Shown here: piece by piece, positions 11,102 to 36,131 of the stretch
Numbering within the stretch: the stretch's first letter is position 1
How the letters are laid out: every line of letters starts with the position of its first letter
Source of the DNA: an uncultured Clostridia bacterium
GTDB taxonomy: Bacteria; Bacillota; Clostridia; Oscillospirales; Acutalibacteraceae
Direction of reading: 5' to 3'
Assembly: GCA_944384835.1 (NCBI GenBank)
Contig: CALWUU010000028.1
Location: 1-64,000, forward strand
DNA: 64,000 bases
Position numbers and translations under genes: made by a program
The notes under the pieces: model-generated
What the model saw: the letters and a program-made list of their open reading frames with translations, nothing else
Databases searched by the model: none
What the model was told of the DNA's origin: nothing

Positions 11102-12346
11102 TTATACACGAATTTGTCCATTGCCATTGACAATAAATTTTACAGACGTCAACTGTTCAATACCCATTGGTCCTCTTGCATGAAGTTTTTGAGTAGAGAT
11201 ACCGATTTCCGCCCCTAATCCGAACATGCCGCCATCTGTGAATCTGGTAGATGCATTCACGTAAACAGCCGCCGCATCTATTTGAGAAGTAAACAACATA
11301 GCATTGGCATAGCTTTCGGTTACAATACATTCGCTGTGACCGGTTGTATAAGTCATAATATGATCAATTGCTTGATGAATATCGTCCACCACGCGAATTG
11401 CGACGGTATAACCTAAATATTCTGTCGCCCAATCTTGTTCCGCTGCCGGTACTGCAGAAGGCAATATTTTACAAACCGTTTGGCATCCTCTAATTTCTAC
11501 TTGTTTTTCTTTCAGCCTGTTCTCAATGACAGGAAGCGCTTTTTCAGCAATATTTTTATGTACCAATACTGTTTCAATTGCATTACAAACGGAAGGACGC
11601 GATGTTTTCGCATTAAAGATGATATCTGCCGCCATATCAATATTTGCTGATTCATCCACATATACATGGCAGTTACCGGAACCTGTCTCTATAACAGGAA
11701 CTTTCGCATTCTCTACAACTGCTTTAATCAAACCTGCGCCGCCTCTTGGAATCAATACGTCCAAATAACCGGTTAAACGCATCATCTCATTGGCGGAATC
11801 CCTGCTGGTATCCTGTACAAGCTGAACACAATTTTCAGACAGTCCCGCCTGCCCTAAAGCAGTACGCATTATATTGGTAATGCATTGATTGGAGTGAAAC
11901 GCTTCTTTTCCGCCTCTTAAAATCACCGCATTGCCAGATTTTAAACAAAGCGCCGCTGCGTCAGAAGTAACGTTTGGTCTGGCTTCATAAATCATACCAA
12001 TAACACCCAACGGTACACGTACTTTTTCAATTTTAAGTCCATTGCTTTGCACCATACCATCCAATACGGTACCGATAGGGTCTTTCAGCGCCAAAACCTC
12101 TTCTACGCCTTTTGCCATACCTTCAATTCGTTCAGATGTTAAAGTGAGACGATCCAATAAAGAAGCGGACATGCCGTTTTGTTTTGCAGCCTCAATATCC
12201 AAAGCATTGGCCTGTATGATGGTATCTTTCTGTTCTCGCAGAGCCTTTGCAATTGCAGCAAGTCCCTGATTTTTTTTATCACCTGCAAACGCAAGTTCAC
12301 GTGCCGCTTCTTTTGCACGTTTTCCCATTTGTTCCAGTTCGGTCAT
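11102..12346 (-). CDS. proA: Glutamate-5-semialdehyde dehydrogenase
   Basis: ProA (414 residues, normal length) reduces gamma-glutamyl phosphate to glutamate semialdehyde with NADPH, the second step of proline synthesis. The aldehyde-dehydrogenase core, the catalytic Cys in SRPSVCNAIET, and the ETGSGNCHVYVD segment are visible. It lies 29 nt after proB on the same strand, with AGGAGG before the ATG, so it is the second gene of a proBA operon. Confidence 0.96.
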   Translation of the reverse strand: MTELEQMGKRAKEAARELAFAGDKKNQGLAAIAKALREQKDTIIQANALDIEAAKQNGMSASLLDRLTLTSERIEGMAKGVEEVLALKDPIGTVLDGMVQSNGLKIEKVRVPLGVIGMIYEARPNVTSDAAALCLKSGNAVILRGGKEAFHSNQCITNIMRTALGQAGLSENCVQLVQDTSRDSANEMMRLTGYLDVLIPRGGAGLIKAVVENAKVPVIETGSGNCHVYVDESANIDMAADIIFNAKTSRPSVCNAIETVLVHKNIAEKALPVIENRLKEKQVEIRGCQTVCKILPSAVPAAEQDWATEYLGYTVAIRVVDDIHQAIDHIMTYTTGHSECIVTESYANAMLFTSQIDAAAVYVNASTRFTDGGMFGLGAEIGISTQKLHARGPMGIEQLTSVKFIVNGNGQIRV

Positions 12347-12375: not shown

Positions 12376-13176
12376 CTATAATGCGGCAAATATAGTGCCT
12401 ATTTGGATACCGTCCAATAATTGATATAAATTTTTAGGATGCGTGCCGCTCATAACACAGCAGGAAATACCTGCTTCATTTGCAATTTGCGCAGCGCGTA
12501 TTTTTGTCACCATGCCTCCGGTTCCTCTGTTTGTACCGGCTTGACCTGCCAGCGCCTTAATTTCGTCTGTAATATGAGCAACATAGGGAATACGTTTAGC
12601 ATTTGGATTTTCCCTTGGATCCGTATCGTAAAGTCCATCAATATCTGTTAAGATAATTAACAAATCTGCTCTTACCAGTGTGGCAACTACTGCGGATAAT
12701 GTATCATTATCTCCAAAATGAGGACCGTCCAACTCGTCAACACTGACAGTGTCATTTTCATTTACAACTGGAATAATATCCATATTAAGCAGTTCTCTAA
12801 AGGTATTTTCTACATTGCGTTTGCTGTTTTCGCTGGTTGTTACATCTGCCGTGAGTAAAACCTGGGCAACCATACAATTATATTCCCCAAACAGTTTATC
12901 GTACATAAACATCAGTTCACATTGCCCTACAGCGGCAATTGCCTGTCTTTTTTCTGTTTCTGTGGGACGTTCCTTAATGCCCAGTTTTCCCATTCCAACA
13001 CCCACAGCGCCTGATGAAACAAGTACTACTTCAAGACCGGAATTATGCAGGTCGCTTAACACTTTGCAAAGCTCTTCCGTTCTTCTTAAATTTAATTTTC
13101 CGTTTTCATAAGTTAATGTAGATGTACCTACCTTAACTACAATGCGTTTTGCCTGTGTCACCGCGGACATTTCCAC
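12376..13176 (-). CDS. proB: Glutamate 5-kinase
   Basis: ProB phosphorylates glutamate with ATP, the committed step of proline synthesis. The 266 residues cover only the amino-acid-kinase domain; the C-terminal PUA domain found in E. coli ProB is absent, as in many Firmicutes. Motifs include VVKVGTSTLT near the N-terminus, VSSGAVGVG, NENDTVSVDEL and GTGGMVTKI. The GGAG-type ribosome site and proA downstream define the operon. The region upstream carries a tandem pair of structured repeats. Confidence 0.95.
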   Translation of the reverse strand: MEMSAVTQAKRIVVKVGTSTLTYENGKLNLRRTEELCKVLSDLHNSGLEVVLVSSGAVGVGMGKLGIKERPTETEKRQAIAAVGQCELMFMYDKLFGEYNCMVAQVLLTADVTTSENSKRNVENTFRELLNMDIIPVVNENDTVSVDELDGPHFGDNDTLSAVVATLVRADLLIILTDIDGLYDTDPRENPNAKRIPYVAHITDEIKALAGQAGTNRGTGGMVTKIRAAQIANEAGISCCVMSGTHPKNLYQLLDGIQIGTIFAAL

Positions 13177-13731
13177 CCGTCTCCTCTGTACTTATAATAA
13201 AATGGAACTGTATCTACATAATAGTGTAGATATTATAACATAAGAGAAATTGCAAAGCAATTTCTCTCCCAAAAATGTTAAAACATTCTTGCCAATAATC
13301 AAAATCTTTGATTTTGTTATGATTGCAAGGTTGTTATAGCATAAAAAAATTGCTGTGCAATTTTCATCACACAGGAGCTAAAACGTTCTTGTCAACAACC
13401 AAAATTTTTTGTTATTGTTGCAAGGTTGACATAGCATATTCTATTGTAAATGTTCAGTGTTTTTCTAATTTCTCCGGAGAGGTTCCCTTTCTATGCAAAG
13501 TCCTCTGAAATATGGCCATTACACTTACTTAAATTACTTTCTTTTCCTGTCCGTTACCATAAGAACATTTCAAACTGTACAAGCATAAAATCAAACGGAA
13601 GTCTCTTTTCATAGCCACATGTTTACATATGTGCAAAAATGAAAAATTTTACTTGTTAAGCAATGAATATCGACAGAATATGGATAAACATTTATAATAT
13701 AACTATAAAATACAGGAGGAAAGTACCAATC
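13177..13731. other. Divergent intergenic region with repeat pair
   Basis: Between proB and the amidohydrolase gene. It holds two copies of the two-hairpin repeat (13231-13436), then about 290 nt with no recognised gene, ending in an AGGAGG site for the plus-strand gene. Confidence 0.5.
13231..13436 (+). repeat. Tandem pair of a roughly 100-bp two-hairpin element
   Basis: Each unit has a first hairpin (13243-13267, AGAGAAATTGC/GCAATTTCTCT; 13346-13364, AAAATTGC/GCAATTTT) and a second, larger one (13288-13329; 13388-13424) in which CTTG and CAAG close an outer stem. Units are bounded by TATARCATA. Bases that pair differ between copies but pairing is kept (CAAT with ATTG in copy 1, CAAC with GTTG in copy 2). 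The same element occurs at 35741-35931. Confidence 0.8.
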
Positions 13732-14625
13732 ATGGATGAGTTTCAAATTTGGGACAGTCATGTTCATATATTTCCCCCGGAAATATATGAACATTGGGAA
13801 ACATACGCTGCCCGCGACCCATACTTCGGTATGTTAACCAAACCATCAGAAAACGGCACAGGTACAGAAGAAGCATGGGCAAATGCAGAAGAAGCTTTGC
13901 AATGTGCCCAATTAGCCGGTATATACGGTTTGGTCATGCAGGGATGGTATTGGAATGACATTGGTCTTATGCATCTGCATAATGATTATATGGCACAGGC
14001 AATCAAAAATCATCCACAGCGTTTAAAGGCATTTGCTTCCATAAATCCCACGTTTGGCAAAGAAGCCATTGCTGAAATAGAACGCTGTGTCTCTCTTGGT
14101 TTTTGCGGAGTTGGCGAATTAGGCCCCGGCGCAAACGGATATGACTTTGAGTCGCCGCAATTTTTGGATGTGTTAGAATGTGCCGTACATTATCATTTGC
14201 CCGTATGTATCCATTGCGGAGAACCAATTGGACATACCTATCCCGGAAAAGATACCACATCATTGGCACCGATTCCTCAGCTATTAAAAAGATACCCCGG
14301 TTTAAAACTGATATTGGCACATATGGGCGGCGGCCTTCCTTTTTATGAACTAAATCCCCGCTACAAGGGATTATTTCAAAATGTACGCTATGACACTGCC
14401 GCCAATCCCTTGCTGTACCATATCAAAAGTATAAAAGCGGTTATCGCAATGATTGGTCCGGAGCGACTGCTTTACGGCAGTGATTTTCCTTTGTTATTAT
14501 ATCCTTCTGTCAAACGGGAAATGGATTTCTCTTTATTTATCCATGATATACGTCAAAACGCAAATCTCACAGAATATGAATGGAACCGATTCATGGGCAA
14601 AAATTTGCTGGAATTTCTCATATAA
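13732..14625 (+). CDS. Amidohydrolase family protein (TIM-barrel hydrolase)
   Basis: A 297-residue amidohydrolase_2-type protein. The N-terminal DSHVHIF supplies the HxH metal pair, VCIHCGEP and LILAHMGGG supply further His ligands, and LLYGSDFPLLL supplies the C-terminal Asp. Such enzymes are metal-dependent hydrolases or decarboxylases; the substrate cannot be told. I chose the ATG at 13732 (MDEFQIWD) because AGGAGG precedes it, by a rather long 12 nt. It is followed 21 nt later by a TIGR04076 gene, probably co-transcribed. Confidence 0.85.
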   Translation: MDEFQIWDSHVHIFPPEIYEHWETYAARDPYFGMLTKPSENGTGTEEAWANAEEALQCAQLAGIYGLVMQGWYWNDIGLMHLHNDYMAQAIKNHPQRLKAFASINPTFGKEAIAEIERCVSLGFCGVGELGPGANGYDFESPQFLDVLECAVHYHLPVCIHCGEPIGHTYPGKDTTSLAPIPQLLKRYPGLKLILAHMGGGLPFYELNPRYKGLFQNVRYDTAANPLLYHIKSIKAVIAMIGPERLLYGSDFPLLLYPSVKREMDFSLFIHDIRQNANLTEYEWNRFMGKNLLEFLI

Positions 14626-33088: not shown

Positions 33089-35683
33089 TTAAGCTTTCGC
33101 GTCATACCAAGTTTTTCCCACGGTTGCTTCCGCTACCATTGGCACAGACAAGTGAATGGCCTGTTCCATTTCTTCTGTCAGCAGCTGCTGAACCAGCGGC
33201 GCTTCTTCTTCCGGAGCTTCTACAATCAACTCATCGTGCACCTGCAAAATCAGGCGTGCGCGCAAACCTTCTTGCTCCAATCTGCGTACCACACGAATCA
33301 TAGCAATTTTGATGATGTCCGCAGCAGTACCCTGAATTGGCATATTCATGGCAACACGCTCTCCAAAGGAACGCAAATTGAAGTTGGACGAACTCAATTC
33401 CGGAAGATAACGGCGGCGTCCGAATAACGTTTCCACATAGCCGGTTTCTTTTGCATGTTCCACCACATTTGTCATATAATTGCGCACACCGCTGAAGTGA
33501 TCCAAATACGTTTTGATATATTCCTCTGCTTCTTTACGGGTAACGCCTATATTTTTTGCAAGCGAAAACGCGCCTATCCCGTAAATGATACCAAAGTTAA
33601 CTGCTTTTGCACGGCTTCTCATCAAAGGCGTTACCATTTCACGAGGCATATGGAACACTTGTGCTGCAGTATTGCGGTGAATGTCATCATTTTCTTTGAA
33701 CGCTTGTATCATACCGGAATCATTTGCCACATGCGCCAATACCCGCAGTTCAATTTGAGAATAGTCTGCATCTACTAAAACACAGCCGTCTTTTGCAACA
33801 AAAAATTTGCGCAGTTCTCTGCCAACGTCAGTACGGACAGGAATATTCTGCAAATTAGGTTCTGTTGAGCTAATGCGGCCTGTCCGTGTTTCTGTCTGGT
33901 TAAAACTGGAATGGATGCGTCCGTCTTCCTCCACCACTTTTAACAAACCGTCGCAATACGTAGACTTGATTTTTGCCAATGTGCGGTATTCCAAAATCAG
34001 TTCCACCACAGGATGTTCATAACGAAGCTTTTCCAATACTTCCGCATTGGTGGAATACCCTGTTTTTGTCTTTTTCCCAGCTGGCAGCCCTAATTTTACA
34101 AATAAAGCTTCTCCCAATTGTTTTGGTGAATTTAAATTAAATTGATAGCCGACTTCCTCGTACACTAAGTTCTGCAACTGATCAATTTTTGTCTGCATAA
34201 TTTCCCCGTATTGAGCAATGCCCTCTTTATCGACGGCAAATCCCAGTTCTTCCATTTGTGCCAATACTTTGGCAAGGGGAAGTTCAATGTCATGCAGTAA
34301 TTTATGCTGTGTATTCTGAGAAATTTTATCATCTATCACTCTATATAAACCAGGATAGATTGCCGCCCATTTTATCATAGGCTCTTGTTCTGTCAGCTGA
34401 GTATCGATTTGAGGCTGCTCCACACCGTATTCTGTTGCCATACGCTCTATTTCATAATTGGAAGAGGAAGGATTGAGCAAATATCCTGCAAGCATAGTGT
34501 CCATTTCCACTTGAACTAAGCCAATATTCTGTCTATATAACGCGGCATACAGCGGTTTTACATCATGAGTATACTTTTTGATATCTTCACTTTCACAAAA
34601 CGCTTTCAAAAAGTCAGCATGTTTTGCCGTATTTACCATACAAATCGTATTCTCTAAATGGAAATATAATGTTTCAATTTGTTTGTCCTGATAGGACACC
34701 AAAAAATAAGCACTGCCTGTTTGTTGTAATTGCTGCAGTAAACTATGGGTATCGTCACATTCTTTGATTTGCAGCGATTGTTCTGTTATCAATGCTTCTT
34801 GCTCTGCTTCAATTTGGTCCAATCCCCATTTTTTAATCAGACTGAATAATTCTAATTTCGCCATCAATCGTACGGCTCCTTGAAGATCACCTTCTGCAAT
34901 ACGATAATGTTCCAAATCAGTATCAATCGGCGCTTGCAGGCAGATGGTTCCCAGCTTATAACTTAAGAAAGCAGACTCTTTTCCTTCTTCCAGTTTTTTA
35001 CGCATGGCAGGCTTTAAATCCAGCTGGTCAAAATTTTGATAAATTGCTTCAATACTGCCATAGGTCTGAATCAAATCCGCAGCGCCTTTTGCTCCAATTC
35101 CGGCAACACCCGGGATATTGTCCGAGCTGTCTCCTTGCAATGCTTTTATGTCAATTAACTGGTGCGGCGTCACACCGTAATCTTCTTTTACTTTAGTTTC
35201 ATCGTATACCGTTACAACCGGCTGCCCAAACTTTGTAGCCGCCAAACGCACCGTAACCGCCGGACCAACCAACTGCAGGCTGTCTCTGTCTCCCGTAGCT
35301 AATACGCATTCATGGCCTTCTTCCGTGCATACGCGTGCTAACGTTCCTAAAATATCGTCGGCTTCGTATCCTTCACATTCCACAATTTGATAGCCAAGCA
35401 ACGTTAAAAGTTCTTTTAAAATTGGCAGCTGCTGCGCCAATTCCGGCGGCATACCTTTACGCTGAGCTTTGTAACCATCGTACTCTTTGTGACGAAATGT
35501 TGGCGCGCGCATATCAAATGCTGCCGCTACCGCATCCGGATTGGTGTCCTCCTTTATTTTTTGCAGCATAGTTAAAAAACCATATATTGCATTTGTAAAC
35601 GTACCGTCTTTGGTCGTTAGCAGCTTAATTCCATAAAAAGCCCGGTTCAATATGCTATTTCCGTCCAGCACAAGTAACTTCAT
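33089..35683 (-). CDS. polA: DNA polymerase I
   Basis: PolA (864 residues) has the 5' nuclease domain (residues 1-285, LLVLDGNSILNRAF, YKAQRKGMPPELAQQLP), a central 3'-5' exonuclease-like domain without the usual DxE triad, and the polymerase domain with motif A DADYSQIELRV, motif B RSRAKAVNFGIIYG and motif C QVHDELIVEAP. As in many Firmicutes, proofreading is probably absent. It fills gaps in repair and Okazaki maturation. The upstream region carries a second pair of structured repeats. Confidence 0.97.
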   Translation of the reverse strand: MKLLVLDGNSILNRAFYGIKLLTTKDGTFTNAIYGFLTMLQKIKEDTNPDAVAAAFDMRAPTFRHKEYDGYKAQRKGMPPELAQQLPILKELLTLLGYQIVECEGYEADDILGTLARVCTEEGHECVLATGDRDSLQLVGPAVTVRLAATKFGQPVVTVYDETKVKEDYGVTPHQLIDIKALQGDSSDNIPGVAGIGAKGAADLIQTYGSIEAIYQNFDQLDLKPAMRKKLEEGKESAFLSYKLGTICLQAPIDTDLEHYRIAEGDLQGAVRLMAKLELFSLIKKWGLDQIEAEQEALITEQSLQIKECDDTHSLLQQLQQTGSAYFLVSYQDKQIETLYFHLENTICMVNTAKHADFLKAFCESEDIKKYTHDVKPLYAALYRQNIGLVQVEMDTMLAGYLLNPSSSNYEIERMATEYGVEQPQIDTQLTEQEPMIKWAAIYPGLYRVIDDKISQNTQHKLLHDIELPLAKVLAQMEELGFAVDKEGIAQYGEIMQTKIDQLQNLVYEEVGYQFNLNSPKQLGEALFVKLGLPAGKKTKTGYSTNAEVLEKLRYEHPVVELILEYRTLAKIKSTYCDGLLKVVEEDGRIHSSFNQTETRTGRISSTEPNLQNIPVRTDVGRELRKFFVAKDGCVLVDADYSQIELRVLAHVANDSGMIQAFKENDDIHRNTAAQVFHMPREMVTPLMRSRAKAVNFGIIYGIGAFSLAKNIGVTRKEAEEYIKTYLDHFSGVRNYMTNVVEHAKETGYVETLFGRRRYLPELSSSNFNLRSFGERVAMNMPIQGTAADIIKIAMIRVVRRLEQEGLRARLILQVHDELIVEAPEEEAPLVQQLLTEEMEQAIHLSVPMVAEATVGKTWYDAKA

Positions 35684-36131
35684 AAGTATTGTCCGTACCT
35701 TTCCAAATAGTTAAAATCTTGTATAACCATTATTTGTTTTATTATAGCATTTAAAAAATTCCTTTGCAATTTTTAACGTATTAATGCTAAAACGTTCTTG
35801 TCAACAATCAAAATCTTTGATTTTGTGCTTGTTACAAGGTTGTTATAACATAAAAAAAATTGTGAAACAATTTCCAGCCAATAAATGTCACAATGTTCTT
35901 GCCGCTACATCTAGGTTATAACAAAAAGCAATTAAATATCATATAATAGCGTTTTCACAATCAGTGAAATTTTAACTGATTCCAATTCATGACACAATTT
36001 TTGATAGAAAAATTCTTAATATAACCGCTTTTTATCCATAACAAAAATTGCGTTATTCCTTGTTTTATGATAGAATAACTCAATATTAATATTTTATGTA
36101 TTTAATTTACTTAGAAACGGTAGGGTTTGAT
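35684..36131. other. Divergent intergenic region with repeat pair
   Basis: Between polA and dus. It contains two copies of the two-hairpin repeat (35741-35931) and an AT-rich promoter region. No gene is seen. Confidence 0.5.
35741..35931 (+). repeat. Second tandem pair of the two-hairpin element
   Basis: Unit III has a second hairpin at 35797-35838 (CTTGT with ACAAG, AACAA with TTGTT, and the inner CAAAATCTTTGATTTTG). Unit IV has a first hairpin at 35857-35873 (AAATTGT/ACAATTT) but a decayed second one. Sequence and order match 13231-13436, and the T-A pair in unit IV replaces the C-G pair of units I and II. Confidence 0.8.

Follow-up and report, generated by a model that had tools for sequence, protein, structure and literature searches.

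What kind of sequence is the tandem repeat that lies upstream of proB, and what keeps its hairpins paired while their bases change? The original prediction placed here (13231-13436) units of about 100 bp, each folding into a short and a long hairpin, and took paired base changes across four units as the mark of selection on structure or of inverted mobile repeats. We followed the units through the window (the whole stretch of DNA analysed, 64 kb), through the genome to which it belongs and through related genomes, and compared the promoter regions in which they sit.

Two arrays of units in the window

Pattern searches, for which 0.00-0.03 matches are expected by chance, together with a covariance model built from 23 units located two arrays in the 64-kb window: a pair of ~102-bp units upstream of proB and, upstream of polA, one full unit joined to a degenerate one. 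The tandem two-hairpin repeat is thus real and recurs in a second array; in both, adjoining units overlap by ~10 bp. Its meaningful reading strand is the minus strand, on which the short hairpin overlaps a predicted promoter. The features are as follows.

13233..13343, minus strand: unit I, full and proB-proximal, made of left -10, long hairpin, spacer, short hairpin and promoter (covariance model 114.9 bits, E 7.6e-20)
13334..13438, minus strand: unit II, full, upstream and in tandem with unit I (pattern and model)
13232..13242, minus strand: extended -10 TATGTTATAAT of the predicted gene-proximal proB promoter, which is the right array boundary (promoter pattern, 0 mismatches; empty-site alignment)
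13244..13266, minus strand: short hairpin of unit I (GAGAAATTGC-TTT-GCAATTTCTC), which extends over the -35 box (fold; conserved in 41 promoters)
13255..13260, minus strand: -35 box TTGCTT of the predicted proB promoter (sequence; TTGC lies 17 bp from TATAAT in 41 sites)
13275..13342, minus strand: long hairpin of unit I (minimum-energy fold; covariation)
13333..13343, minus strand: internal -10 copy TATGCTATAAC, final T changed to C, common to units I and II (promoter-pattern search)
13346..13364, minus strand: short hairpin of unit II, AAAATTGC-ACA-GCAATTTT (sequence)
13376..13437, minus strand: long hairpin of unit II (model alignment)
13428..13438, minus strand: native -10 remnant (TATGCTATGTC), which is the left array boundary (aligns to TATGGTATAAT of the empty proB promoter in the relative G004)
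12376..13176, minus strand: proB, glutamate 5-kinase, downstream of the array (NCBIfam TIGR01027, E 8.9e-98)
35742..35852, minus strand: unit III, polA-proximal (model 110.4 bits, E 5.7e-19)
35843..35925, minus strand: unit IV, degenerate, upstream in the polA array (model E 5.0e-6 genome-wide; 24.4 bits in the window scan)
35741..35746, minus strand: -10 TATAAT of the predicted polA promoter, at the end of unit III (2 mismatches to the promoter pattern)
33089..35683, minus strand: polA, DNA polymerase I, downstream of the second array (NCBIfam NF004397, E 1.9e-302)

The unit is short, non-coding and multi-copy, with no ORF of at least 80 aa inside it in the ORF list of the window; in the same list proB is followed by a proA-like ORF (11102-12346). 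A weak model match at 2317-2427 was considered as a further unit and rejected as a terminator-like hairpin. Separately, a perfect 16-bp inverted repeat with a 3-nt loop lies at 13760-13794, within the start of an amidohydrolase-like ORF (13663-14625).

Dispersed copies in the genome and its nearest relative

The genome of the window (G000) is a 1.77-Mb draft of 46 contigs, 92% complete. The covariance model found 48 matches in it at E<=0.001, which we counted as ~44 sense units at no fewer than 33 loci and 4 antisense echoes of palindromes. A pattern for the promoter end matched 65 times, versus 0 for the reversed-pattern control. The nearest relative compared, G004 (MAG 'uncultured Clostridia bacterium isolate E25__bin135'), has a ProB 90% identical; since Caproiciproducens, Gallacutalibacter and Ruminococcus bromii are further close ProB relatives, G000 probably belongs to the Acutalibacteraceae. 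We sampled 98 genomes up to order level; copies of the G000-type pattern were abundant in G000 (47) and G004 (18) only, with 0-1 in the other four congeners, and the strict pattern had no match in the GTDB genome set. The wider search that the original prediction called for thus yielded many further units in the genome, and relatives in the family. In some G000 units (ndk, murC and GNAT promoters; L024, L050, L076) the long hairpin is extended and contains an additional palindrome (GGAAAGGAATGTCTTTCC-like) in its interior.

The unit ends in a predicted promoter

Read on the minus strand, the unit ends in GAAATTGC-NNN-GCAATTTC-TTT-TATGNTATAAT, that is, a TTGCNN box, 17 bp and an extended -10 TATGNTATAAT, with the palindrome over the -35; this layout is sigma-70-like. 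We analysed the 41 gene-proximal sites lying within 2 mismatches of the promoter consensus. In these the extension TG never varies, TATAAT departs from invariance at a single base of a single site, and 41/41 keep the last T. A codirectional start codon follows in every one of the 41, at a median distance of 48 bp, so that orientation is fixed towards the gene. Downstream ORFs were chosen by a simple script and individual gene assignments may be wrong; ten were checked with NCBIfam (proB, polA, exodeoxyribonuclease III, thyX, pyrC, mnmG, a PepV-like dipeptidase, tig, phosphoribosylformylglycinamidine synthase and rlmB) and the remainder named by eye from translations. Most are housekeeping genes. 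The -35/-10 layout is strong and, with its position, suggests a putative promoter.

The internal junctions of arrays differ from the gene-proximal ends: they read TATAAC or TATAAG (ten in G000, including C5:30867, C5:30969, C28:13333, C37:18608 and C43:30659), versus TATAAT next to the gene, and TATAAC occurs in G004 too. In sigma-70 promoters, losing the final T of the -10 should weaken the promoter. Because the internal boxes carry C or G at this position, only the gene-proximal promoter of an array is probably strong in the G000 genus. The internal copies look as if upstream promoters were being switched off.

Partial forms occur as well. Several G000 and G004 genes have half-units, with the promoter and no recognisable long hairpin; conversely, at C16:19843 of G000 (L021) a long hairpin alone, with no promoter half, occupies the leader of the following gene, right behind a TATATGCTATAAT promoter that is intact. 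One palindrome may also serve two divergent promoters: extended -10 motifs flank ATTGCGAAGCAAT on both sides in G004 (L111, C79:1673-1719).

These features could suggest a transcription-factor regulon, in which the palindrome ATTGCNNNGCAAT over the -35 would be an operator evolved at ~40 promoters and the rest of the repeat incidental. The palindrome is indeed the best conserved part of the unit and keeps a fixed position over the -35, and a few sites show palindrome and -10 only. However, the ~100-bp similarity extends far past an operator and is found in tandem copies, and the downstream genes come from unrelated pathways. Two further results given below, the empty sites and the relatives in other genera, bear on the same reading.

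Arrays are insertions at -10 boxes

Orthologous upstream regions were compared in G004, G003, G002 and G005. G004 has empty sites at four loci, those of proB, thyX, ispG and the gene at C43:88118. At each of them the left flank in G000 ends in a -10-like motif and the right flank continues the same ancestral promoter. Once joined, the flanks aligned to the G004 promoter with scores of 57, 81, 96 and 82, respectively, whereas the best non-orthologous promoters, used as control, scored 34-39. The inserts measure 196, 259, 222 and 97 bp in the same order. The more distant congeners lack arrays at these genes as well, which makes it more likely that G000 gained them than that G004 lost them.

The same event is found in a second genus. 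In G007 a 129-bp unit stands directly after TATGGTATAAT upstream of polA, and the congener G180 has the same promoter without the unit (joined score 100, versus 27 and 34 for unrelated controls). Three other comparisons between congeners were less clean: the 'empty' site of an alpha-galactosidase gene, TATAATACCCTC, may hold a remnant, only the right flank aligns for a LytTR regulator, and the flanks differ for addB. Insertion at the -10 box is thus documented by empty sites in two genera. That arrays are insertions relative to such sites speaks against the regulon reading.

The boundaries point to the same target. Over 17 arrays or copies, whose left boundaries were chosen by hand, these boundaries match TATGNTATAAT at a mean of 7.6 of 10 positions, versus 5.5 for shuffles with a maximum of 6.5 in 2000. 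The -10 copies at the two ends have no more than about TATAA(T) in common, which may be element-borne, and a target duplication is therefore indistinguishable from an element-borne -10. At older loci, several G004 orthologs (hisS, lepA, pyrC, exoA and others) retain the TTGCNN-17-TATAAT end with the long hairpin decayed or absent. The -10 box appears to be new as an element's target; we found no description of a -10-targeting element, nor of this element family, in the open-access literature.

Stem pairing is kept while stem bases change

Unit I folds with -35 kcal/mol (z = -7.5) and unit II more weakly (z = -3.0). Across the 23 aligned units 84.5% of cells pair, in an alignment that leans towards structure, the structure having been drawn from the same sequences. 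Cells changed on both sides number 55 versus 25.4 +/- 3.7 shuffled (0/500), a margin to be read knowing that related sequences exceed shuffles easily, and slid controls, with 8-14 such cells, agree with the shuffle result. The covariation score over the 23 units is 0.199 versus 0.131, and the clearest covarying pairs are C-G/T-A (12 and 9), G-C/A-T (11 and 6), T-A/C-G (10 and 7) and T-A/C-G/G-C (7, 4, 3). The G004 stem has another sequence and still pairs (CCCGTAACAG with CTGTTACGGG). The paired base changes first noticed over four units are therefore genuine, and the two outcomes named at that time as counting against them, no further copies and no significant covariation, are contradicted by the copies in G000 and by the 23-unit alignment.

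Fold, covariation and relatives all place hairpins near both ends of the unit. Between them, the arms of the long hairpin make an imperfect inverted repeat that begins in the left -10, but on its right the unit closes with the predicted promoter and not with its inverse.

Covarying stems could reflect selection on RNA structure, in a structured RNA such as a leader or small RNA, and with insertions of the G007 type, transcripts started at the native promoter would indeed carry the long hairpin at their 5′ end. Yet G.T versus A.C mismatches show no clear strand preference, and hairpins in DNA are for this reason as likely a basis for the covariation as RNA. Moreover, the G000 hairpin lies upstream of the gene-proximal promoter and hence outside the gene-proximal mRNA, and the upstream -10 copies are degraded. 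Rfam 15 gave tRNAs only in the window at gathering scores, and no match in nine related loci even at E<=1. We hold a structured RNA to be very improbable. The two readings first offered, selection on structure or inverted mobile repeats, each have support, in the significant covariation and the dispersed copies, and a structured RNA as the main product finds none in Rfam or in the mismatches; the predicted promoter on the minus strand, the single orientation before genes and the insertion at a native -10 had escaped the original prediction.

Relatives across the family

Weak model matches in other genera were at first candidates for chance similarity, which we rejected, the sequences sharing the plan of the unit: TATAAT, AACCTC, A, stem-loop-stem, GAGAACATTG, a spacer with a hairpin, -10 and gene, here too with tandem arrays. 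Units in relatives are about 70-142 bp long. Long hairpins from 14 genomes mostly fold alike (clamp, bulged A, outer stem, short bulge, inner stem, short loop) with stems that differ in sequence; some extracted matches, e.g. from G114 and G170, lack this common fold. The tag TATAAYAACCTCACGRAA, with at most 1 mismatch, was found in 25/250 genomes and 18/135 genera of the family, with controls near zero, and is multi-copy in several genomes (4-16 copies). When 394 genomes of the order were sampled, a stricter tag occurred outside the family in just 2.

Other genera keep the long hairpin but have a very different sequence in the short one, which counts against the regulon reading, and with all the evidence considered we judge a regulon unlikely. 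It would be compatible with a mobile element if a factor had later adopted the palindrome.

Certain sites recur. The polA promoter region carries the element in G000 (35742-35925 of the window), G007, G213 and G056 (L289, L388, L389), and tags also lie upstream of a DnaD-like gene in three genera (G007 C22:88492, G056 C3:769830, G185 C38:6515). These are either favoured targets or old shared insertions. A plasmid search gave no match to the element and a phage search only one 41-base match (E 0.3); in viral contigs a single tag matched, lacking the hairpin, and the G000 type had no match.

A candidate mobile promoter element

The ~100-bp unit is probably a non-autonomous mobile promoter element, which would target -10 boxes and restore a promoter; its promoter activity and its mobilising enzyme are inferred. 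Each unit spans from -10 to -10: TATAAT or TATAAC, AACC, long hairpin, GAACRTT, spacer, short hairpin over the -35 (TTGCNN), 17 bp and TATGNTATAAT. It inserts at the -10 of an existing promoter, with its own predicted promoter pointing at the gene. The native -10 would then become the left boundary and the element's own -10 part of the new promoter, and the gene would stay transcribable; such a landing may be tolerated thanks to the -35 and -10 that the unit carries at its end. Since this fresh -10 would itself be a target, tandem arrays could arise. A putative enzyme reading the hairpin ends would join the unit at TATAA(T), possibly on DNA opened by RNA polymerase.

For that enzyme, one candidate is a Y1 HUH transposase, in which case the unit would be a hairpin-ended, single-strand-transposed element of IS200/IS605 type, palindrome-associated or REPIN-like, with TATAAT as flanking target. 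Our units have a hairpin lying subterminally at either end, a conserved flanking target, a fixed orientation and no clear target duplication, which matches the description of IS200/IS605 ends (PMC6006769), and their covarying stems fit recognition of a folded end. However, the Y1 family (PF01797) had no match in eight carriers (G000, G004, G009, G014, G056, G151, G155 and G185), of which the main ones, G000 and G004, are incomplete drafts, and in other carriers the ~1.5 kb flanking the Y1 genes contain no element ends. A Y1 transposase as driver was rejected as not linked to the element in carriers. Though the HUH route fits the anatomy, we do not file the element under IS200/IS605 because this test failed, and consider such an origin possible but doubtful. 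On one chromosome of G289 (C1), eleven Y1 transposase genes of equal score and ORF length (L348, L355, L359, L361-L368) are not associated with repeat ends.

A bolder form of the mobile promoter element would be a new kind that targets the promoter open complex: a candidate enzyme would recognise the folded hairpin ends and join the element to a -10 held open by RNA polymerase, and the element would persist by rebuilding the promoter. This we regard as rather unlikely, and any connection with the -10 as it stands single-stranded in the open complex is offered as a hypothesis only.

Significance and comparison with known systems

If the mobile promoter reading holds, ~33 mostly housekeeping transcription units of one lineage have had their upstream promoter region exchanged, yet were not destroyed, by a small selfish DNA element that landed on the -10 box and supplied a new promoter. 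This would be a natural example of rewired promoters and of promoter-specific insertion in bacteria. It would also carry a warning, that a palindrome common to many promoters may have been left there by a mobile element and need not point to a regulon, and the older mobile-promoter proposal would become testable through resolved insertion sites.

That proposal, of putative mobile promoters and promoter propagation, reportedly goes back to Matus-Garcia et al. in 2012 and van Passel et al. in 2014. Mobile promoters are presented, in the part of the source cited, as repeated intergenic sequences before unrelated genes, which are taken to serve as promoters and to propagate (PMC8049555). Our element is alike in being a similar non-coding sequence before non-homologous genes, at 33 loci, and in having moved, as filled and empty sites at four G000/G004 loci and at polA in G007/G180 attest. 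Compared by second-hand description, it differs in its resolved -10 insertion sites, two-hairpin anatomy, tandem units and family-wide relatives.

Correia repeat enclosed elements of Neisseria are, in the passages cited, short non-autonomous mobile repeats of 107 and 155 bp (PMC2649163; PMC2229807) that can make promoters at their ends and alter the expression of neighbours (PMC2649163), with 24-bp terminal inverted repeats, TA ends and target duplication (PMC2229807). Both are short non-autonomous mobile repeats that bring a promoter, here a predicted one; judging by these descriptions, ours is set apart by its -10 box target and its fixed orientation towards the gene. With IS200/IS605-derived elements, REP/REPIN and PATE, as the cited passages portray them (PMC6006769; PMC3116915; PMC8266576), it shares hairpins near both ends, a specific flanking target, TATAA(T), and small non-coding dispersed units. 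Unlike IS200/IS605-derived and REP/REPIN sequences, it has no linked Y1 transposase in carriers, and its units bear a predicted promoter and sit in 5′ regions. Finally, RUP and MITE-like sequences resemble it, as far as the cited passage goes, as ~100-bp dispersed intergenic repeats with no ORF whose transcripts would form stable stem-loops (PMC2229807). RUP is said there to insert at TA and to have inverted repeats resembling IS630-Spn1 (PMC2229807), whereas the element described here, known without a partner insertion sequence, targets TATAAT.
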